Shown here: positions 19,232-28,976 of the stretch, piece after piece | Numbering within the stretch: position 1 is the first letter of the stretch | How the letters are laid out: each line of letters opens with the position of its first letter | From: Acidihalobacter prosperus | Lineage (GTDB): Bacteria; Pseudomonadota; Gammaproteobacteria; DSM-5130; Acidihalobacteraceae | DNA length: 64,000 bases | Reading direction: 5' to 3' | NCBI RefSeq assembly: GCF_000754095.2 | Contig: NZ_JQSG02000002.1 | Span: 186,001-250,000, forward strand | Made by a program: the position numbers and the translations under genes | Notes under the pieces: generated by a model | The model's input: the letters and a program-made list of their open reading frames with translations, nothing else | The model's database searches: none | Told to the model about the DNA's origin: nothing

Positions 19232-20311
19232 TCAGGCCGGCGGCAACTCGCCGTCGGCCCGCCGGATCGCACCCACCCAAGCGTGCAGCACCGCCTGCAC
19301 CAGAGTCGCCAGCGGAATCGCGAAAAACACGCCCCAGACACCCCACAAACCGCCGAACAGCAGCACCGCGGCAATGATCGCCACCGGGTGCAGGTTCACC
19401 ATTTCGGAGAACAGCAGCGGCACTAGCAGGTTGCCGTCGATGAACTGGATCACCGCATAGGCGCCGACCGCGTAGAAGAAATCGCCGCTCAGGCCCCACT
19501 GGGCATAGGCCACGAACACCACCGGCAAGGTCACAACGGCCGCGCCCACGTAAGGGATGATGACCGACAGCCCCACCAGCACCGCCAGCAGCAGCGCGTA
19601 ATGCATCTCCAGCAGCGCGAAGGCGATGTAGGTCGACAGCCAGACCACCACGATCTCGACCAGCTTGCCGCGCACGTAGCCCACGATCTTGAGATTGACC
19701 TCCTGCCAGACCTCAGCGGCCAGTGCCTGCTGTCGGGGCAGCACGCCGCGCGCCCATTCGAGCAGCAGCACCTTGTCCTTGAGCATGAAGAACACCAGCA
19801 GCGGCACCAGGATGAGGTAGACGCTGAGCGTGATCAGGCCGATCACGGAAGCCAGCGACAGGCTCAGCGCGCGCTGGGCCAGGCTGCCGATGGCATGCTG
19901 CAGTTCGCCCATGATCGCCTGGATTTGGGCATCGGATATGAAATGCGGGTAACGCTGCGGCAACGCCTGCAAGGCTTCCTTGCCCTGCGCCACCATGTGC
20001 GGCAGCTCGCGCAGGAATTCGGCCACCTGGCGCGAGAGCAGCGGCACGAGCCCCACCATGACCAGCGCCACCACGGCCATGAACGCCAGAAACACCAGCC
20101 ATACCGCCGGCGATCGCGGCATGCCCATGCGCACCAGACGCAGCACGCCGCCCTCGAGCACGAAGGCGATGACCAAGGCCGCAATGAGCGGTGCCATCAG
20201 CCGCCCCGTGAACAACACCACTGCGGCACCCGACACGATCAGCAGGATCAGGCTGATCACCTGCGGATCGGAGAAATAGCGCTGGAACCATGCGCGCAAC
20301 AGGGCGATCAT
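19232..20311 (-). CDS. AI-2E family (PerM-like) membrane protein, copy 1
   Basis: A 359-residue polytopic protein of the AI-2 exporter/PerM family (UPF0118), with about eight hydrophobic segments and the late signature VIIPYVGAAVVTLPV followed by FIDGNLLVPLLFSEMVNLHP. Family members have been proposed to export AI-2 or act as Na+(Li+)/H+ antiporters; neither is certain here. Its start overlaps the end of the upstream hypothetical gene by 4 bases, so the two are coupled. A second family member is at 36409. Confidence 0.9.
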   Translation of the reverse strand: MIALLRAWFQRYFSDPQVISLILLIVSGAAVVLFTGRLMAPLIAALVIAFVLEGGVLRLVRMGMPRSPAVWLVFLAFMAVVALVMVGLVPLLSRQVAEFLRELPHMVAQGKEALQALPQRYPHFISDAQIQAIMGELQHAIGSLAQRALSLSLASVIGLITLSVYLILVPLLVFFMLKDKVLLLEWARGVLPRQQALAAEVWQEVNLKIVGYVRGKLVEIVVVWLSTYIAFALLEMHYALLLAVLVGLSVIIPYVGAAVVTLPVVFVAYAQWGLSGDFFYAVGAYAVIQFIDGNLLVPLLFSEMVNLHPVAIIAAVLLFGGLWGVWGVFFAIPLATLVQAVLHAWVGAIRRADGELPPA

Positions 20312-20697
20312 TCAGGCGCGTCTTCGCTCGAGACCTGCCGATACTGTAGATAGTGAGTCTCGAACAGCACTTCGAGCTCGTCGATCACCTCCACGGCATC
20401 GCGCCCTTGCATGACGTGCTGCGCCATCAGCGCCGAGGTCTGATTGAGCATCTTGGCCTTGTCGAGCATCGGGTAGGTGGCCGCCAACCGGCGTACCGCC
20501 TTGACCACCGACTCCTTCTCCGGACGCGGGTGCGGCACGGGTGCCGCCGCGACAGGCTCAGGTTTGGGCGCGCGCTCGGCAAGAAATTCGGCAAAGGCGA
20601 TCAGGGTACGCCGATCCGCCTCCGGCAGGGCGTCGAACAACGCCTGCAGACGCTTGCCCGCGCCGCCACGCTTAGCGCTGGTTTTGATCGGCAACAC
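20308..20697 (-). CDS. Conserved hypothetical protein, 129 residues
   Basis: No family recognised. It is a soluble, mostly helical protein with a basic N-terminus (IKTSAKRGGAGKRLQ), a helix rich in Leu and Ala (LFDALPEADRRTLIAFAEFL), a Pro/Glu linker near 45-62, and a C-terminal helical region with DAVEVIDELEVLFE. It has no cysteines. The start is GTG at 20697, one base after the amidotransferase-like stop, with AAGGT upstream. It overlaps the PerM gene by 4 bases. Operon position and codon pattern support a real gene. Confidence 0.75.
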   Translation of the reverse strand: MLPIKTSAKRGGAGKRLQALFDALPEADRRTLIAFAEFLAERAPKPEPVAAAPVPHPRPEKESVVKAVRRLAATYPMLDKAKMLNQTSALMAQHVMQGRDAVEVIDELEVLFETHYLQYRQVSSEDAPE

Positions 20698-20698
20698 G

Positions 20699-21436
20699 CT
20701 ATTCGACCTTAAGGCTGAACACCGGCGTCTTGTGGCGGGCCTGCATCAGTCCCAGTGCCTTGACCAGGGCTACGACCACGGCATCCGTGGTTTCCTGCAT
20801 GCCATGCCATTCCATACGCGCCTCGCCCAGCAGCTCGGGCAGGTTGGGCGGAGGGTTGTGACCATCCTCCATCAGGATGTCCTCGATCATGCCTGGCTTC
20901 ATTTCAGGGCGGAAAAGCAGCCCGTAGGTCAGAGGATCGGGCCGAATGGCCAGCCAGCGCCCCTCGTCGTCGACCAACAGGGGCTCGATGCCGTCGGGCA
21001 GGTCGACGCCGCCGTGATGGAGTACCAGCAGCCGGCGGCCGTGCATCGCTTCGGCAAGCACATCGCCTTCCCCGGCTGCGGTCTTGTGCGCGGTTACGAA
21101 ACCTGCGGTATAGGGCGGATCTTCGCGACCGAACCCGCCCGCAGCTTCGGCCACCAGCAGGCCGCCCAGCCCGAATCCGGTGACGGGTCGGCGCGCCTTC
21201 TGGAACAGGTGGATCAGATTGATCACATCGTTGCGATAGGGCAATGCCTCATCATCCAAGGTGGACGAGGCGCCACCCAGCACGAAAAGACCATCGAACT
21301 GACCGACGCTGGGCGGCAGCCCCTGCCCCAGGAAAGGGCGATAGTAGTCGAAACCGATGTCGCGCTTTTCCAACTGCTTTTCGATCAGCCCGAGAAATTC
21401 GGAATAGGTGTTCTGCACGACCACGTAGTTCTGCAT
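20699..21436 (-). CDS. Class I glutamine amidotransferase-like protein lacking catalytic residues
   Basis: A 245-residue protein with the fold signature of class I amidotransferases: GLFVLGGASSTLDD near residue 50, a nucleophile elbow TGFGLGG, and a C-terminal LLFRPEM segment. In active enzymes the elbow reads G-x-C-x-G, but here residue 89 is Gly. The catalytic His of the usual F-H-P-E motif is Arg176; Glu178 remains. It cannot act as a normal glutaminase and is more likely a binding or regulatory protein. AGGAG precedes the ATG. It lies between a LysR gene and the 129-residue hypothetical gene. Confidence 0.82.
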   Translation of the reverse strand: MQNYVVVQNTYSEFLGLIEKQLEKRDIGFDYYRPFLGQGLPPSVGQFDGLFVLGGASSTLDDEALPYRNDVINLIHLFQKARRPVTGFGLGGLLVAEAAGGFGREDPPYTAGFVTAHKTAAGEGDVLAEAMHGRRLLVLHHGGVDLPDGIEPLLVDDEGRWLAIRPDPLTYGLLFRPEMKPGMIEDILMEDGHNPPPNLPELLGEARMEWHGMQETTDAVVVALVKALGLMQARHKTPVFSLKVE

Positions 21437-21466: not shown

Positions 21467-22387
21467 TTACGGCTGCGAGTGCCCGTCGTGCGCATGCGTC
21501 TCGCAGTAATCGCGGGCGAAGTTGAGCAACTCCTCCATGGCGCGCAGACGGAATTTCTGGCGCTGGCGTACGAACGAAAATGGCCGACGCAACGGCGGGT
21601 CCAGCGGCAACGCGACCAGGCGGCCGAGAGCGATCTCCTTGTCCAGGCTGGTGCGCGACAGGATACTCACGCCCATGCCGGCCTCCACCGCCCCCTTGAT
21701 GGATTCCGAACTGCCCAACTCCAGACACTCGTTGAGACTATTGCGGTCGAGTCCCTGTTCGTCAAGGTATTCCATGATGACCTCGCGCGTCCCCGACCCC
21801 TCCTCTCGACAGATAAAGGGGTGGCTGAAGAAGGCCTTGGCGGTGAGGGCCTTCTCGCCGGCCAGCGGGTGGCTCGGCGGCAGCACGGCGACCAGCTCGT
21901 CCTCGCGGCACATCTCCACGACCAGATTCTTGTTCGCAACCGGCGCCTCGACCACGCCCAGATCGATGATGTTGTTCTCGACCATGGACACAATGCCTTC
22001 GGTATTGGAGACGCGCAGGCGAAGATTGACGTCCGGGTGCTCGGCCTTGAAGGTCCCGAGCAGTGCGGGCAACATGTATTCGGCGATGGTCGTTGAAGCC
22101 CCCACCGTCAACGCACCGCTGATGTCGCCGGTCAGTTCCTTGATCGCATTGTCGAGCTCTGCGTAGAGTTCGAAAATGCGCTCGCTGAATTGGTAGGCGA
22201 TCTGCCCGGCCTCGGTTAGGCTCACCCGGTTGTGGGTGCGATCGAAAAGCCGCGTGTTGAAATGGTCCTCAAGCTGGCGGATCTGAAAAGTCACCGCCGG
22301 TTGGGTCATGTGTAACGTATCTGCCGCCTTGGTAAAACTCAGCAATTTGGCAACGGTATAGAAAACCTGAAGTCTGCGGTCGGCCAC
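21467..22387 (-). CDS. LysR-family transcriptional regulator
   Basis: A 306-residue LTTR with an N-terminal winged helix-turn-helix (residues 4-62; SFTKAADTLHMTQPAVTFQI is the recognition region) and a substrate-binding domain (about 90-295) starting GALTVGASTTIAEYMLP. The sequence resembles the YeiE/CysL-like group more than CbbR, but the effector cannot be read. The start is GTG at 22387 and lacks a strong ribosome-binding site. An inverted repeat 49 bases upstream is a candidate autoregulatory site. It is divergent from the TM2-like gene and upstream of the amidotransferase-like gene. Confidence 0.9.
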   Translation of the reverse strand: MADRRLQVFYTVAKLLSFTKAADTLHMTQPAVTFQIRQLEDHFNTRLFDRTHNRVSLTEAGQIAYQFSERIFELYAELDNAIKELTGDISGALTVGASTTIAEYMLPALLGTFKAEHPDVNLRLRVSNTEGIVSMVENNIIDLGVVEAPVANKNLVVEMCREDELVAVLPPSHPLAGEKALTAKAFFSHPFICREEGSGTREVIMEYLDEQGLDRNSLNECLELGSSESIKGAVEAGMGVSILSRTSLDKEIALGRLVALPLDPPLRRPFSFVRQRQKFRLRAMEELLNFARDYCETHAHDGHSQP

Positions 22388-22435
22388 GGTATCGGTTTAA
22401 ATCCTCGTAGGGATCGGCGTGTAGGTTGCTGCATA

Positions 22436-22457
22436 CTAGCAGCCCGCTTGATGCTAG
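22436..22457. promoter_or_regulatory. Inverted repeat in lysR divergent region
   Basis: CTAGCA (22436-22441) and TGCTAG (22452-22457) form a perfect 6-bp inverted repeat separated by 10 bases, centred between the divergent LysR and TM2-like genes. Size and place fit a LysR-type recognition site; binding is inferred. Confidence 0.45.
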
Positions 22458-22527
22458 AAAACCGAAAACCCGTCGTATTATCCCCGCTCAGCCCGTAACG
22501 CGACAAAAGGTCGCGGAGAGCCGATCT

Positions 22528-23085
22528 ATGCACCCTAGCTGGAAAAAACTCGACCTTGAGGGAGAGGGCCTGCAGACCCTGAACCTGCGCTACAACCAGG
22601 CCATGCGACGACCGTCGCGTGCCTACCTGCTGATGGTTCTGTTCCCGCTCGGCTTGCATCGCTGGTACCTGCGGGAACCCGTCGGCGCCGTTGCCTATCC
22701 CCTGCTCTGCACACTCGCGGCGTGGCTGGGCATTGTCTTCGGCGCCATCCCGGCTGCGGGCGGCGCCATCGCGATACTCGGCCTGCTCGCCTTCGATGCC
22801 TTCTGGATCGGCAGGCGCAGCATTTCCCTTAACAAGGCGCTGCGCATGCGCCAGTTCATGCGTCCCGGCGCCGCACCGCCGCCTGGCTATCGAGGACGCT
22901 ACGTCGACGAGTCGCTGGAGGATTACCTCAAAATCAAGGAGCGCGAACGGGCCGGTCACCAGCCGGCTGGCTCCGACACGACGGCGCCGGGAACAGTCGC
23001 TTCGGCGCCGCCCTCGTTCAACGAACAGGAGGCCATGCTGCAGGAACTCGCCCGCACCAACAAGGGCCGACGGCGTACTCATTGA
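22528..23085 (+). CDS. TM2-like small membrane protein
   Basis: A 185-residue protein of unknown role. The N-terminal 40 residues are soluble. Then come two to three hydrophobic segments (about 37-105) with PLGLHRWYLREPVGAVAYPL, which recalls the glycine/aromatic turn of TM2-domain proteins, followed by a basic cytoplasmic tail containing SLEDYLKIKERERAG and a disordered end. The ATG at 22528 has GGAGAG upstream; the longer frame starting at 22426 covers the promoter region and is rejected. It is divergent from lysR. Confidence 0.75.
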   Translation: MHPSWKKLDLEGEGLQTLNLRYNQAMRRPSRAYLLMVLFPLGLHRWYLREPVGAVAYPLLCTLAAWLGIVFGAIPAAGGAIAILGLLAFDAFWIGRRSISLNKALRMRQFMRPGAAPPPGYRGRYVDESLEDYLKIKERERAGHQPAGSDTTAPGTVASAPPSFNEQEAMLQELARTNKGRRRTH

Positions 23086-23100: not shown

Positions 23101-26100
23101 TCATGCGGCGCCGGCACGCGCATCCTCACGGCGCTGCCAAAGATAATAGAGCAGCGGGATCACGACCAGGGTCAGCAGCGTGGATGCCAGCGTGCCGAAG
23201 ATCAGCGATACGGCCAGGCCACCGAACACCGGGTCGCTGACCATCACAGCGGAACCGAAAATGATGGCCAGCGCGGTCAACAGGATCGGCCGGAAGCGGA
23301 TGGCGCCCGCCTCGATCACCGATTCGGCCAACCCGTAACCGCGGCGGCGGTAGTCGAGTATGAAATCGATCAACAGCAGCGAGTTGCGCACCACGATGCC
23401 GGCCAAGGCAATGAAACCGATCATCGAGGTCGCATTGAACGGCATGTGGAACAACCAATGCCCGGGGAAGATGCCTACCAGGGTCAACGGGATCGCGCCC
23501 ATCACGATCACCGGCAACGCGAAGGACTGGTAGTAGGCCACCAGCAGCAGATAGATGAACACCAGCGCGACGATGAAGGCGGCGCCGAGATCGCGGAACA
23601 CGTCTAGCGTCAACCGCATATCGCCACCCCAGAGCAGCTGATAGTGGGTCACGTCGTTCGGCTGCGCGTCAACGAAGCCGAGATTCCCCGTGGTTAGATG
23701 CACGCCATTGGGCAGCGTTTTGCCGTCGAGCATGCTGTTGAGCGTCAACGTCGCGTACACCGGGCTGGCATTGAGCATGTCGCCCATCACGTAGACCACC
23801 GGATGCTGGTCGCGGTCGAGAATCGGCTTGGCGACGCTGGACGGCTCGATACGCACCAGGCTGCCGATCGGCACCGAACGCCCCTGTGCATTGGTGACCT
23901 GCAGGTCGCGCACCTGCTGAATCCAGGAACGGTCGGCACGCTTGAGCCGCACGATCAGTGCCACGGGTTCGGGGGCATGCACCTCGCGCAGGGTGCCGAC
24001 ATCGATGCCCGCCACATAGTCGTGGACGAGCTTGGCGACCTGCGCCGGCGCCACGCCCGCCAGCATGGCCTTGCGCGCATCGACATGAATCCGGTATTCA
24101 GGCGCCGTGGCCGTGACCGAATCGTCGATATTGATCATGCCATAAACCTTCTCGAAATCCTGCTTCACGAGCGCCGCCGTTTGACGCAGGGTTTCGTAGT
24201 TCGGCCCGTACAGTTCCGCCAGCACCTGGGAGCGCACCGGTGGCCCCGGCGGCGTCATGAACAGCTTGATGCGGGTGAGCGGGAAGGCCGCGCGCACCGG
24301 CGCCAACGCCTTCCACACCTCCGTGGCCACCACGCTGGTATGCGGACGGTCGTGGCGGCCGACGAGATTGACCACGATCTGCGCGAGATTGCTGCCCTTG
24401 CGCAGGGCATCGCCGCGCACCATGCCGGCGAAGCTCAGGGGGCCGGTACGGCCCAGATAGGTCTGGTAATGGGTCACGTAGCGCTCGCGCGCCAGCACTT
24501 CGCCCACGGCCTGCGCGACGCGTCCGGTCTCTGCCAGCGCGGTACCGGCGGGCGTGTCGATTTCGACGGTGAAGGTACTGACGTTGCCGTCGGGCAGCAT
24601 CTGCAGGCTCACGCCAAGCGCACTGATCGGGCCGTTCATGCCCGTGGGGCGGATAAATTGCCAGGCCGGCATCAACAGGGATAACAACAGCAGGCCGATG
24701 ACGATGGAGAAAAACACCGTGCGCTTGCGTCCGCTCGCGATCAGCGGCCGGATGACGGCGACGTAGCTGCGGTGCAGCCAGTCCTGCTTCGATTCGCCGG
24801 CATCCTCGAGATCGGCCTGGCGCGCCAGGGTGGCCATCGCCTTGCCGCGCAGCCAGCGATAGGCCACCCACGGCACCACGATATACGCCAGGATCAGCGA
24901 AGCCACCATCGCCACCGGCACGTTGATCGGTATCGGCCGCATGAACGGCCCCATCATGCCACTGACGAAGGCCATCGGCACGAAGGCCAGGATGACCGCA
25001 ATCGTGGCGATGTTGGTCGGATTACCGATCTCGTTGGTCGCGCGCACCAGCATTCCGCCATAGTCTCGGCAATCGCCGTGATGCAGGTGGCGGTGGATGT
25101 TCTCGATCACCACGATGGCCGCATCCACCAGCAGGCCAAGCGACAGGATCAGCGCGAATAGCGATATCCGGTTGATGGTCTGGCCAATCATCCAGCCCAC
25201 GCCCAGCACCACGAACAGCGTCAGGGGCACCGTCAGGGTGACGATGATCGCCTCCCGCCAGCCGAGGAAGAACAGCAGGATGAAGGACACCACGATGATC
25301 GCGATGGCCAGATGCTCCATCAGCGTGTTGACCGCATCGTTGGCGCGGCGCCCGTAGTCGCGGGTCACGCTGACATGCACGCCCTGCGGCAGCATCTCGC
25401 GTTCGAGACGATGCAGCTTGGAAAGCACCGCATCGGATACGGTCACCGCATTGGCGCCGGCGCGCTTGCCGATCGCCAGGGTCACCGCCGGCACGGCATC
25501 GGCGGCGCCGGCGGCCTCGCTGACGTATTCATCGTGGCTGCGCGCGCCGCGCACGACTCGCGCCACATCCTTGAGATAGACTGGCTTGCCGTGCACCACG
25601 CCGACCACGATGTCCCCCAGCTCGTGCACATCGGCGAAGGCCGCATTGACGCGCAGGTCGATCTGCCGGTTGCTGTTGACTAGATGCCCCGCCGGCACCA
25701 CCGCATTCGAGGCCTTGAGCAGCTTGATCACCTGATCCAGGCTGAGGCCTGCGGCTGCCAGACGACCGGGCTCGATTTCGACATTCACGGCGGGTCGCTC
25801 GCCGCCGATCACATGGCTGTCGCCCACGTTCGGCACGCTGCGCAGCTGTTGCAGCACGCGCTCGCCCAACTCGCGCAACGCTACTCCGCCCAAATTTCTG
25901 GCGCTGAGCGTGACCGCCAGCACCGGCACGTCATTGATGCCGATGCTCTTGACCAGCGGCTGCATCGTGCCGGGCGGCAAACGGTCCATGTTGCGCATCA
26001 GCTGGTTGTAGAGCAGCAGCAGACTGCGCTCCTCGTTCGCCCCCACCTGGAACTGCACGGTCACCACGCCCAGATCGTTGACCGCATTGCCGTAGGTATG

Positions 26101-26370
26101 CTCCACGCCCTTGAGGCCGGCCATCAGCGCTTCCAGGGGCCGCACCACCTGATTCTGGATCTCTTCCGGGCTGCTGCCGGGACGCATGACCAGAATCGAG
26201 GCCGCCGGCACCACGATCTCCGGGTTGTACAGGCGCGGCGTCACCATCACGGCAAGCGTGCCGAACAGCGTGAGCGCCAACATGATCAACGCCGTGATCT
26301 TGGAGGCCAGAAAGGCCTGCGCCAGCCGCCCCGCCAGGTTCAGCCGTTCGTCCGGGTGCTGCGCACTCAT
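23101..26370 (-). CDS. RND efflux transporter, inner-membrane permease
   Basis: A 1089-residue proton-driven RND pump subunit with the standard duplicated layout: TM1 near residue 25-45, a large periplasmic loop, TM2-6 (about 350-510), and a second loop and TM bundle (about 550-1070). The TM4 region reads GLLVDAAIVVIEN: Asp416 matches AcrB D407, but the following Asp is Ala. In the TM10 region AcrB K940 is replaced by Arg (GIVVRNSLLLIDF). It is neither a typical HAE-1 pump nor a heavy-metal pump (no DFG before the VDxA). The ATG overlaps the adaptor stop, giving OMP-adaptor-pump order. The substrate is unknown. Confidence 0.92.
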   Translation of the reverse strand: MSAQHPDERLNLAGRLAQAFLASKITALIMLALTLFGTLAVMVTPRLYNPEIVVPAASILVMRPGSSPEEIQNQVVRPLEALMAGLKGVEHTYGNAVNDLGVVTVQFQVGANEERSLLLLYNQLMRNMDRLPPGTMQPLVKSIGINDVPVLAVTLSARNLGGVALRELGERVLQQLRSVPNVGDSHVIGGERPAVNVEIEPGRLAAAGLSLDQVIKLLKASNAVVPAGHLVNSNRQIDLRVNAAFADVHELGDIVVGVVHGKPVYLKDVARVVRGARSHDEYVSEAAGAADAVPAVTLAIGKRAGANAVTVSDAVLSKLHRLEREMLPQGVHVSVTRDYGRRANDAVNTLMEHLAIAIIVVSFILLFFLGWREAIIVTLTVPLTLFVVLGVGWMIGQTINRISLFALILSLGLLVDAAIVVIENIHRHLHHGDCRDYGGMLVRATNEIGNPTNIATIAVILAFVPMAFVSGMMGPFMRPIPINVPVAMVASLILAYIVVPWVAYRWLRGKAMATLARQADLEDAGESKQDWLHRSYVAVIRPLIASGRKRTVFFSIVIGLLLLSLLMPAWQFIRPTGMNGPISALGVSLQMLPDGNVSTFTVEIDTPAGTALAETGRVAQAVGEVLARERYVTHYQTYLGRTGPLSFAGMVRGDALRKGSNLAQIVVNLVGRHDRPHTSVVATEVWKALAPVRAAFPLTRIKLFMTPPGPPVRSQVLAELYGPNYETLRQTAALVKQDFEKVYGMINIDDSVTATAPEYRIHVDARKAMLAGVAPAQVAKLVHDYVAGIDVGTLREVHAPEPVALIVRLKRADRSWIQQVRDLQVTNAQGRSVPIGSLVRIEPSSVAKPILDRDQHPVVYVMGDMLNASPVYATLTLNSMLDGKTLPNGVHLTTGNLGFVDAQPNDVTHYQLLWGGDMRLTLDVFRDLGAAFIVALVFIYLLLVAYYQSFALPVIVMGAIPLTLVGIFPGHWLFHMPFNATSMIGFIALAGIVVRNSLLLIDFILDYRRRGYGLAESVIEAGAIRFRPILLTALAIIFGSAVMVSDPVFGGLAVSLIFGTLASTLLTLVVIPLLYYLWQRREDARAGAA

Positions 26371-27479
26371 GATTTGTCTTCCGTCTGCACGCGCACGCCA
26401 TTATCCAGGCGGCCCTTGGCCGACACCACGATGCGGTCCCCGCTCACCAGTCCCGCCAGCACTTCGACCTTGCCATCAATCGGCGGCCCCAGGCGGACCA
26501 TGCGAAAATACGCGACGCCTTGCCCGTCAACCACGAATACGCCGTCGATATCGCCACGCCGGTGCACCGCCGACGCCGGCACGACGATGCCGCGATGCAC
26601 TCCAACCGCAACCCGCACGCGCGCATAGTCGCCGCTCTGGGCGGGACTGCCGGCCGGCAGGGCGATCTTGACCGTATGGGTGTGCGTCATCGGGTCGGAA
26701 GCGTCCACCAGGCGTTCCACCGTGCCGCTCACCGACTGCGGCCGCGCGCCCAGTCCGTCCACTTCGACCGTAACGGACTGACCGAGGCGCAGGGCACGGA
26801 ATGCCTGGTCGCTCATCTGCGCCACGACCTGCAGGTGCGCCGCGCCATCGAGCGTCAGCAGAGGCTGCCCCGGCGTCGCCAGCTGCCCGTTGCTGACCGA
26901 CTTGGCCACCACCACGCCGGCAAAGGGCGCACGCACCTCGGCATAGTGCAACTGCGCGCGCGCGGACTTGAGTGCGGCGCGCGCCTGCGCGACGTTGCCC
27001 TGGGCAACCTGGTAGGCCATGTGAACCTGCTGATAGCGTTGCGCCGGGACCGCCTGCTGCTCAAACAGCGCCTTGTAACGGCGTTCATTCGCGGCAGCGT
27101 CCGCCAATGCGGCTTGGGCCTTGTCGAGGCTTGCGCGCGCCTGCGCGATGCCACCCTTGACATCGCTGGGATCGATCGTGAGCAACAGCGCTCCGGCACG
27201 AACGGACTGCCCCTCGTGGACGCGCAACCCTTGCACATATCCCATCAATCGGGAAGCCACCTGCACACGATCCGCAGCCGCGACGCTGCCGGGAAAATCG
27301 GCATACGCGGGCAGATTGCGCACCGCCACCTTGAGGGTAACCGCCGATACCGCATTCGTTGCGGATGCGCCAGATGAGGTATCCGATGTCGCGGTATTCC
27401 GATCGCCGCAACCGGCCAGAGCACCCATCGCGGCGCTGAGCAGGACGGGCAATATCCATTTGCGTGCTTGAATCGCCAT
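26367..27479 (-). CDS. RND efflux periplasmic adaptor lipoprotein
   Basis: Membrane-fusion protein of the AcrA/HlyD family, 370 residues, bridging the pump and outer-membrane channel. It has a signal peptide with lipobox ALAGC near residue 23, a lipoyl-type half (VASRLMGYVQGLRVHEGQSV), a helical hairpin (about 95-165, with AQARASLDKAQAALADAAANE), the second lipoyl half (AEVRAPFAGVVVAKSVSNGQ) and a C-terminal beta barrel. The ATG at 27479 is preferred to an upstream TTG. It overlaps the pump gene by 4 bases. Confidence 0.93.
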   Translation of the reverse strand: MAIQARKWILPVLLSAAMGALAGCGDRNTATSDTSSGASATNAVSAVTLKVAVRNLPAYADFPGSVAAADRVQVASRLMGYVQGLRVHEGQSVRAGALLLTIDPSDVKGGIAQARASLDKAQAALADAAANERRYKALFEQQAVPAQRYQQVHMAYQVAQGNVAQARAALKSARAQLHYAEVRAPFAGVVVAKSVSNGQLATPGQPLLTLDGAAHLQVVAQMSDQAFRALRLGQSVTVEVDGLGARPQSVSGTVERLVDASDPMTHTHTVKIALPAGSPAQSGDYARVRVAVGVHRGIVVPASAVHRRGDIDGVFVVDGQGVAYFRMVRLGPPIDGKVEVLAGLVSGDRIVVSAKGRLDNGVRVQTEDKS

Positions 27480-27518
27480 GGTCGTCGCTTCCAAGATAGT
27501 CTTCGTGAGTCTGCAGAA

Positions 27519-28976
27519 TCAGGGTTGGGCAGGTGAAGTCCGCAGTGCGCTCAGGCTCAACCGCCCGGTCGCCAGCAGCAGGCCCGCACGCGCCATCACC
27601 GCCTGATAGCGCGCCGCCACCAGCTGGCTGCGCGTTTTGTCGAGTTCCGCCTGCGATGCAAGCAGCTCGGCGATCGTGGACACGCCTTTTTCGTAACGCA
27701 GTCGCGCCAGACGCTCAGCCTCGGCAGCCTCGCCGATGGCCTGTTCGCGGGTCGACTCGCGGATCGCCGCCAGCCTCACCTCGCGCCACGCCTTGTCCAC
27801 GGCCAGCACCGTCTGCTCGCGCGCCTTGCGTGCCTCGGCCTGGCGCTGCATCACCCTTGCCTCGGCGCCGTCGAGCGCTCCACGGCGGGCGCCGAAATCG
27901 AACACGTTCCAGGTCAACACGCCGGCCACGGTATACGAGGGACGACCGCCGTCGAGCGAAGGGCTGTTCCACTCGCGGCTGATCTGGATATTGAAATGGG
28001 GAAGATAGCTTGCACGGGCCTTGTCGACGCCTGCCCGTGCGGCCTCCACCTGCAGCAGCCGCGCGCGCACGCCCGGATTGTCCGTCACGCCCTGCCGGCG
28101 CAATGCCGTCAGATCCGCCGCCGGCAGTACGACGCTGACCCGCTGCGCGAGCCGCACCGGCACGTCTGCCGGCAAACCCACCATCATCCGCAGACGCGCG
28201 AGCTGATTCTCGAGCGCGTTGCGGGCTTCCTGCGATTGCAGTCGCGCATTGGCGAGATGCAGTTTGGCGCGCAGCACGTCGCTCTTGGAAACGACTCCCT
28301 GAGCAAACAGCTGCTCGCTCAGCTTCACGTAGGCATCGGCGGCGGCGATCGCCTTGCCGGCCACCCCGACGAAGGCCTGTGCGGCCCCGACGCCCGCATA
28401 GGCACCCAGCACCTCGAACAACAAATGCTGCCGGGCGGCCACGTCACCCTGCCGCGCAGCGGCAAGGTAGGCCCGCGCCTGCGCCAGGCCGCCCCAGATC
28501 TGACCGCCGTTGTAGACCGGGATCTGCAGGGTCAGCTTCGTCTGATAGTTGCGATACCAGCCAGGATCGTTCAGGTTGTCCGGCGCCGTCGAGAGGCTCT
28601 GCGGCCCCAGAAACTGGTTCGCGCCGAAATCGTTGAAGGTCGCCTTGCCCTGCGAGAGCTTCATCCCGAAAACATTGAGCGGGTTGTCGCTGCCGGACCC
28701 CATCAACGAAGCGCTCAGACTCGGCAGCAAGTGGCCTCGCGCCTCGCGCACGCCGCCTTTCGCCTCGTCGAGACGCGCGCGCGCCTCAAGCATCTCCGGC
28801 GTCTGCGCGAGTGCGCGGTGCACCGCCTGATCCAGACTCAGCATCCCAGCCGAAGACGCCGTGTCGGCCGGGTTCGCCGCCTCTGCCGGCGAGACCGTCA
28901 AGGCGAGCAGCAGGGATGACAAAACCAGCAGTCTCAGCCACGCCTGGGACCCCGATGGATAACCTCTCATCCGCAC
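27519..28976 (-). CDS. TolC-family outer-membrane efflux protein
   Basis: Outer-membrane channel of the tripartite pump, 485 residues. It has an N-terminal signal peptide (about 1-33, ending SPAEA), then two repeats of long helices: the first starts LSLDQAVHRALAQTPEM, the second includes RQGVTDNPGVRARLLQVEAARAG. A periplasmic stretch with NVFGMKLSQGKATF lies near 90. GTG at 28976 has AAGGAG at 8-base spacing; an ATG 6 bases later is also possible. It is the first gene of the efflux operon. Confidence 0.92.
   Translation of the reverse strand: MRMRGYPSGSQAWLRLLVLSSLLLALTVSPAEAANPADTASSAGMLSLDQAVHRALAQTPEMLEARARLDEAKGGVREARGHLLPSLSASLMGSGSDNPLNVFGMKLSQGKATFNDFGANQFLGPQSLSTAPDNLNDPGWYRNYQTKLTLQIPVYNGGQIWGGLAQARAYLAAARQGDVAARQHLLFEVLGAYAGVGAAQAFVGVAGKAIAAADAYVKLSEQLFAQGVVSKSDVLRAKLHLANARLQSQEARNALENQLARLRMMVGLPADVPVRLAQRVSVVLPAADLTALRRQGVTDNPGVRARLLQVEAARAGVDKARASYLPHFNIQISREWNSPSLDGGRPSYTVAGVLTWNVFDFGARRGALDGAEARVMQRQAEARKAREQTVLAVDKAWREVRLAAIRESTREQAIGEAAEAERLARLRYEKGVSTIAELLASQAELDKTRSQLVAARYQAVMARAGLLLATGRLSLSALRTSPAQP

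Follow-up and report, generated by a model that had tools for sequence, protein, structure and literature searches.

In the gene clusters that encode the sHdr sulfur-oxidation system together with LbpA, lipX (Hden_0687 of Hyphomicrobium denitrificans) has been described as a 'putative glutamine amidotransferase' (PMC10332631), and a cluster figure legend names a GATase1 (PMC6067878). The gene is drawn together with the lipoate-assembly genes (PMC10332631) and is counted with those responsible for cofactor assembly on LbpA2 (PMC11582611). In the excerpts available from the literature on sHdr-lbpA clusters, no mention was found of a missing catalytic cysteine in lipX, and the literature searches brought up no additional paper on the subject. 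Searches for literature on pseudoenzyme amidotransferases, or on an amidotransferase accompanied by LysR and an AI-2E transporter, gave nothing relevant in the excerpts available, and a search that combined amidotransferase, Acidithiobacillus and LysR yielded no paper.

The window, which is the whole stretch of 64,000 nucleotides of Acidihalobacter prosperus DNA that was analysed here, contains a gene for a protein of the same fold class in a different setting. We propose, with a probability of about 0.5, that this protein is a class I glutamine amidotransferase that has lost its catalytic activity and functions in the sHdr sulfur-oxidation system, as an accessory or assembly factor.

An amidotransferase fold without the catalytic cysteine and histidine

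The window-type gene (20699..21436, minus strand) encodes a pseudo-glutamine amidotransferase of 245 amino acids and begins with an ATG start codon. A search of its own genome with the protein returned a single match. No Pfam family matched the protein at E values up to 1; in the orthologues, the score was above the Pfam GATase cut-off of 22.8 bits for L068 (31.8 bits) and below it for L054 (17.2 bits). An AlphaFold2 model built from 32 aligned members of the window family had a mean pLDDT of 90.2 and a pTM of 0.88, and the PDB folds closest to it were the class I amidotransferases 8khs (DnfC), 3m3p, 1o1y and 3l7n. Sequence matches among solved structures were 9xfs and 3m3p. On the basis of the model and the PDB fold matches, the protein was assigned to the class I GATase fold, in agreement with an earlier note, made from the DNA letters only, that had predicted an amidotransferase fold with its remainder preserved.

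That note had also placed a glycine at the site of the nucleophile and an arginine at the site of the catalytic histidine, and both replacements were confirmed. The elbow sequence is G87-F-G89-L-G91, and F-R176-P-E178 stands in place of the H-x-E motif; the two residues expected of an active enzyme, the nucleophile Cys of G-x-C-x-G and the catalytic His of H-x-E, are therefore both absent. To define the family, orthologues were drawn from 56 relatives, from 369 class genomes and from a scan of genome contigs. The 32-member alignment includes the window protein; L029, which is ended by its contig edge, was kept in the position counts, and L070 was excluded from the family and counted as LipX via L104. 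Position 89 was Gly in all 32 members and Cys in all 39 Cys-bearing relatives. Position 176 was Arg in 31 of the 32 members and His in all 39 Cys-bearing relatives; the one exception, L028 from Acidithiobacillus sulfuriphilus, has the His, yet still lacks the Cys. The motif Glu at position 178 was present in 32/32. Of the two replacements whose fixation the earlier note proposed to check, Gly is thus fixed among the orthologues and Arg nearly so; an intact triad, which would have spoken against the earlier suggestion, was seen in none of the 32 family members read.

Comparison with two congeners gave Ka/Ks values of 0.040 and 0.074, which are rough since synonymous substitutions (Ks 1.6 and 1.1) have almost reached saturation. 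Values of this size disfavour a decaying gene. A pseudogene was ruled out on these values and on the 31 related loci, none of which has an internal stop (L029 is truncated at its contig end). Considered together with the fixation of Gly89 and Arg176, the low Ka/Ks indicates that the loss of the Cys is old, and the protein looks maintained. Because this loss is fixed throughout the family and no intact triad was found, the sensory, scaffold or binding role that was originally put forward is the sensible kind of interpretation.

Relatives of the protein and the Cys-less clade

A family-profile search of 299 phylum genomes yielded 30 loci, with the window's own genome counted in. Elbow residues were read for these best 30 loci, about 70 weaker matches lying outside the reading. 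The elbow Cys was absent in the top four of the 29 other loci and in the match from G170 (30% identity); it was present in the remaining 25 phylum loci and in 14 weak matches from the 56 relatives, so that the Cys-bearing set numbered 39 (L075-L099 and L008-L021). The phylum scores fell without a jump, with 88.7 bits for the weakest LipX and 86.2 bits for the best Cys-bearing protein.

Three of the top four Cys-less phylum loci, as well as that of G170, were located inside sHdr-LbpA clusters, with the lipoate ligase on one side and a DsrE-like gene on the other, and two of these genes have a 4-nt overlap between their start and the stop of the ligase gene. The gene names used for these clusters are putative and follow gene order; matches to the HdrA and HdrB models and, in Pfam, to the ligase, radical-SAM and GcvH families support them. 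In H. denitrificans, lipX overlaps the ligase gene likewise (PMC10332631) and adjoins dsrE3C (PMC10451225). Since both the ligase overlap and the dsrE3C neighbourhood agree with published lipX, the four cluster-borne Cys-less proteins were taken to be LipX, an equation made by gene order and not by published sequence. In a further clade member, from G370 (L100 8870-9577), Glu occupies the nucleophile site and H-P-E is changed to H-P-Q; its gene lies on a different contig from the sHdrB1 of G370. Its neighbour is presumably a hemL-like gene.

In a phylogenetic tree that took in 15 of the 32 window-family rows, these rows, the four LipX and the G370 protein were split from the 39 Cys-bearing relatives with support of 100/100. 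Within the same tree the window family formed one group (100/99) and LipX another (100/100); the window family is the sister family of LipX. The clade is distinguished from the Cys-bearing group by residues that include E19, E23, I27, F29, Y31, P34 and F35, and further D156, G159, P177, K180, D186, M189 and E190. Many of them lie near the first helix (17-23) and the helix that follows the F-x-P-E motif (181-189).

The conservation of Arg176 and Glu178 in the window family, together with a fold that is predicted with high confidence, might instead be explained if the protein were an enzyme by other means, the G89/R176/E178 pocket catalysing a different reaction that needs no Cys and whose substrate could be, for instance, a sulfur oxyanion or an amide. 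We regard such an activity as very unlikely, given that Arg176 and Glu178 are not kept in the four LipX read despite the same tie to sHdr, and that, of the 37 members of the Cys-less clade, 36 have Gly and one has Glu at the elbow position.

The window-type gene occurs with the sHdr complex

Co-occurrence was sampled by sequence profile within Pseudomonadota, with relatedness partly controlled, and sHdrB1 of G170 was used as the marker query for sHdr. Among 80 chosen genomes, sHdrB1 was found in 22 of the 23 carriers of the window-type gene, in G170, which has LipX, and in none of the 56 non-carriers. The sole carrier without a match, G339, has an assembly that is 75% complete. In the class sample of 369 genomes, 21 had both the window-type gene and sHdrB1, 346 had neither and one, again G339, had the gene only; sHdrB1 without the window-type gene was seen in one genome, G170, where lipX is present. 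Fisher's test on the class co-occurrence gave p = 5e-32, a value that ignores relatedness. In the phylum sample of 299 genomes, sHdrB1 was found in five (G000, G370, G372, G417 and G601), and these were the five top scorers with the clade profile, all of them Cys-less. Samples of equal size (369; 299) were taken to be the same genomes across searches; the listed handles agree, and the negatives are listed in part. As a separate observation, the sHdrB1 copies L111, L113 and L114 (from G023, G030 and G175) had no other sHdr gene matches in the fetched stretch.

Relatedness was addressed on a tree of the neighbouring LysR proteins (50 rows, of which L055, L151 and L147 are long and unsure). On this tree the presence of the window-type gene requires 9 changes, at least 5 of them on well-supported branches. 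When 5 independent pairs on supported branches were compared, 4.9 on average agreed with the sHdr state and none opposed it (sign test on the 5 pairs, p = 0.0625, range to 0.125).

RuBisCO-family genes were detected in 23/23 carriers compared to 31/56 non-carriers among the 80 chosen genomes; their presence in the latter ruled out RuBisCO as the sole driver of gene presence. The controls for co-occurrence were few (RuBisCO and LipS1), and other sulfur-oxidizer genes, for instance sox or dsr, might co-occur too.

No separate LipX was seen when the 23 window-type genomes were searched with a LipX profile: the best match in those genomes was the window-type gene itself, at 70-114 bits, and all others were below 50 bits, compared to 432 bits for the LipX of G170. 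In addition, shdr stretches were fetched from 18 window-type genomes; among these 20 stretches, which include partial ones, no match to an amidotransferase or to LipX was found. Since there was neither a separate LipX nor an amidotransferase in the shdr stretches, LipX and the window-type gene look like alternatives across the 24 genomes that were searched for both. The window-type gene is located approximately 250 kb from sHdrB1 in the window genome, and the link between the gene and sHdr therefore rests on the phylogenetic profile.

The host locus and its LysR regulator

Three genes around the window-type gene are encoded on the minus strand. A LysR-type regulator (21467..22387) lies upstream. 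Downstream, 1 nt after the amidotransferase stop, is HYP (20308..20697), a protein of 129 amino acids with no family above cut-off, and its gene overlaps by 4 nt that of a PerM/AI-2E-type transporter (19232..20311; PF01594). On the plus strand, a divergent gene for a small protein with a sub-threshold Pfam TM2 match (22426..23085) is found beside LysR in 29/31 orthologous loci. Further upstream in the window is an RND efflux set (23101-28976), with an inner-membrane pump (PF00873) and with periplasmic and outer-membrane partners assigned by position; homologues of the pump (36-39% identity) stand beside LysR-HYP in 12 of 20 fetched loci that are free of the amidotransferase.

In the orthologous loci a LysR match was directly upstream of the window-type gene in 31/31, and HYP followed it in 30/31, L029 ending inside the gene. 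PerM was found in 17 of the 27 loci with sufficient downstream sequence and had no match in the other 10, of which L030 has a masked stretch there; short contigs left 4 loci undecided. Of the neighbours whose operon conservation the earlier note proposed to check, PerM is thus a frequent, inconstant partner.

HYP was also present in 22 of 37 sHdr-negative genomes and in G370. When 19 of these 22 sHdr-negative loci were fetched, LysR and HYP were adjacent, with no amidotransferase between them, in 18. HYP occurs without the other locus genes in L144 and without LysR in L154 (G370). The proposal in the earlier note that LysR, the amidotransferase, HYP and PerM may form one pathway was rejected, because LysR-HYP(-PerM) stands without the amidotransferase in sHdr-negative genomes. 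According to the profiles, the presence of the gene follows the sHdr complex encoded elsewhere in the genome and not the neighbours in the locus. HYP itself belongs to a conserved family of approximately 120 amino acids whose members stand beside a Rubisco-regulator-like LysR whether or not the genome has sHdr. The AlphaFold2 model of HYP was all-helical (pLDDT 84, pTM 0.58) and had no match among PDB folds at E values up to 0.001.

The best sequence match of the LysR protein among solved structures was a Rubisco operon regulator (5y2v), and the dead amidotransferase could accordingly be imagined to bind a metabolite or the regulator and so tune this LysR to sulfur oxidation, whereby energy supply would be coupled to carbon fixation. 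The constancy of LysR as upstream neighbour keeps such a role under consideration, and the occurrence of RuBisCO-family genes in every carrier would suit it. We nevertheless judge it quite unlikely: no LysR was seen in the cluster gene lists beside the LipX genes, whose products carry the same clade signature; 18 loci have LysR-HYP without the window-type gene; and G170 has LipX and sHdr with no RuBisCO match.

Separation of sHdr from the lipoate-assembly genes

LipS1 was matched in 26 of the 369 class genomes. It was present in 19 of the 22 window-type class genomes, being missing in G110, G194 and G339, and also in G170 and in six genomes without an sHdrB1 match (G039, G049, G181, G189, G269 and G313). 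This distribution bears on whether the protein is a lipoate-assembly factor, which would help LipS1/S2, LipT and sLpl(AB) to build lipoate or attach it on LbpA without hydrolysing glutamine, for example by holding octanoyl- or lipoyl-LbpA. Such a function would fit the presence of LipS1 in most window-type genomes, the position of the sister gene lipX, which overlaps or abuts slpl(AB), and the grouping of lipX with the lipoate-assembly genes (PMC10332631, PMC11582611). Gene order and the LipS1 distribution leave room for this reading of LipX.

However, a combined clade profile found neither a window-type gene nor LipX in the six genomes that have LipS1 without sHdrB1. The best relatives in four of the six keep the Cys (L166 was read by eye), and G181 and G189, which are 72% and 81% complete, respectively, gave no match. 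The opposite combination, sHdr and the window-type gene with no LipS1 match, was seen in G110 (one contig, 99% complete) and in G194 (approximately 410 contigs).

A same-genus pair provided a direct comparison: G159 has the shdr cluster and the window-type gene, and G269 is without both. On one contig, G269 has TusA followed by DsrE3, LbpA, LipS1, sLpl, LipT and LipS2, so the lipoate genes are kept; the block from sHdrC1 to sHdrB2 and one LbpA are absent between TusA and DsrE3. In the gap between LysR and HYP of G269 (L149), the frame reads RYKPPVFALKIE shortly ahead of a stop. This stretch is identical to the tail of the G159 protein at 9/12 positions, compared to no more than 6 in 2000 shuffles. 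Tail scoring was applied to 14 of the 18 empty loci (gaps of at least 43 nt), and L149 alone was tail-like. Since the other 13 gaps reached only 3-5/12, the stretch is read as the relic of a deleted copy. A BLAST search with the G159 gene did not bring it up, and this reading therefore rests on the tail comparison and on the place of the stretch. It was also considered whether empty loci might retain the C-terminal tail as a small peptide in its own right, but a tail-like stretch occurred in L149 alone of the 14 gaps.

If the stretch is such a relic, the gene would have left with sHdr and not with the lipoate genes. The profile evidence as a whole leans against a lipoate-assembly role for the window-type protein, which we consider unlikely. 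With regard to LbpA, the lipS1-slpl-lipT-lipS2 set is retained along with TusA, a DsrE-like gene and an LbpA-like gene in G313 (L136) and G269 (L155), neither of which has an sHdrB1 match, so that one may ask what task LbpA has in the absence of sHdr.

Proposed role and comparison with known systems

As an accessory or assembly factor of sHdr, the window-type protein would act by binding and not by catalysis, most likely in the assembly or operation of the complex, and it would have the sHdr complex, and not the enzymes of lipoate assembly, as its partner. Because many of the clade-marking residues cluster around helices 17-23 and 181-189, the alignment suggests a contact surface formed by E19, E23, Y31, P34 and F35 with K180, D186, M189 and E190. 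The gene for one form of the protein, LipX, has its place inside the shdr cluster, and that of the window type would have been displaced into the LysR-HYP-PerM locus.

We tentatively extend this reading to the whole Cys-less clade of LipX and the window family, which may be a constant, unrecognised sHdr component of Pseudomonadota: a pseudoenzyme on which the assembly or the working of the complex depends, and neither an amidotransferase nor chiefly a lipoate-assembly enzyme. In many RuBisCO-bearing gammaproteobacterial sulfur oxidizers it would have been missed, the gene sitting in an unrelated regulator locus. To our knowledge, the way in which sHdr converts LbpA-bound sulfur to sulfite is still being worked out. 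If each sHdr system has a dead amidotransferase, then gammaproteobacteria with clusters devoid of lipX contain a component of this energy pathway that has escaped notice, and lipX probably does not have the activity assigned to it. With sHdr genetics already established in H. denitrificans (PMC10332631), the clade gene is a clean target for a knock-out.

Compared with the PRK07053/PRK06490 group and DnfC (PDB 8khs), the window-type protein has the fold in common, but the profile matches are weak, and its score against the PRK06490 NCBIfam model was far under the cut-off (57.8 compared to 339 bits). The 39 Cys-bearing relatives, which are of the PRK07053/PRK06490/DnfC kind, retain Cys, His and Glu, whereas the window family retains the Glu alone. 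LipX is 25-30% identical to the window protein, and its N-terminal Q-x6-L-G-x2-E and C-terminal K-x4-E-D-x2-M-E signatures are nearly the same in the window family. Unlike the window family, the four LipX read have His (three) or Asn (one) at position 176 and Gly at position 178 in all four. LipX is encoded inside the shdr-lip cluster, whereas the window-type gene lies in the LysR-HYP-PerM locus and not beside slpl(AB); like the window family, LipX is tied to genomes that have sHdr.
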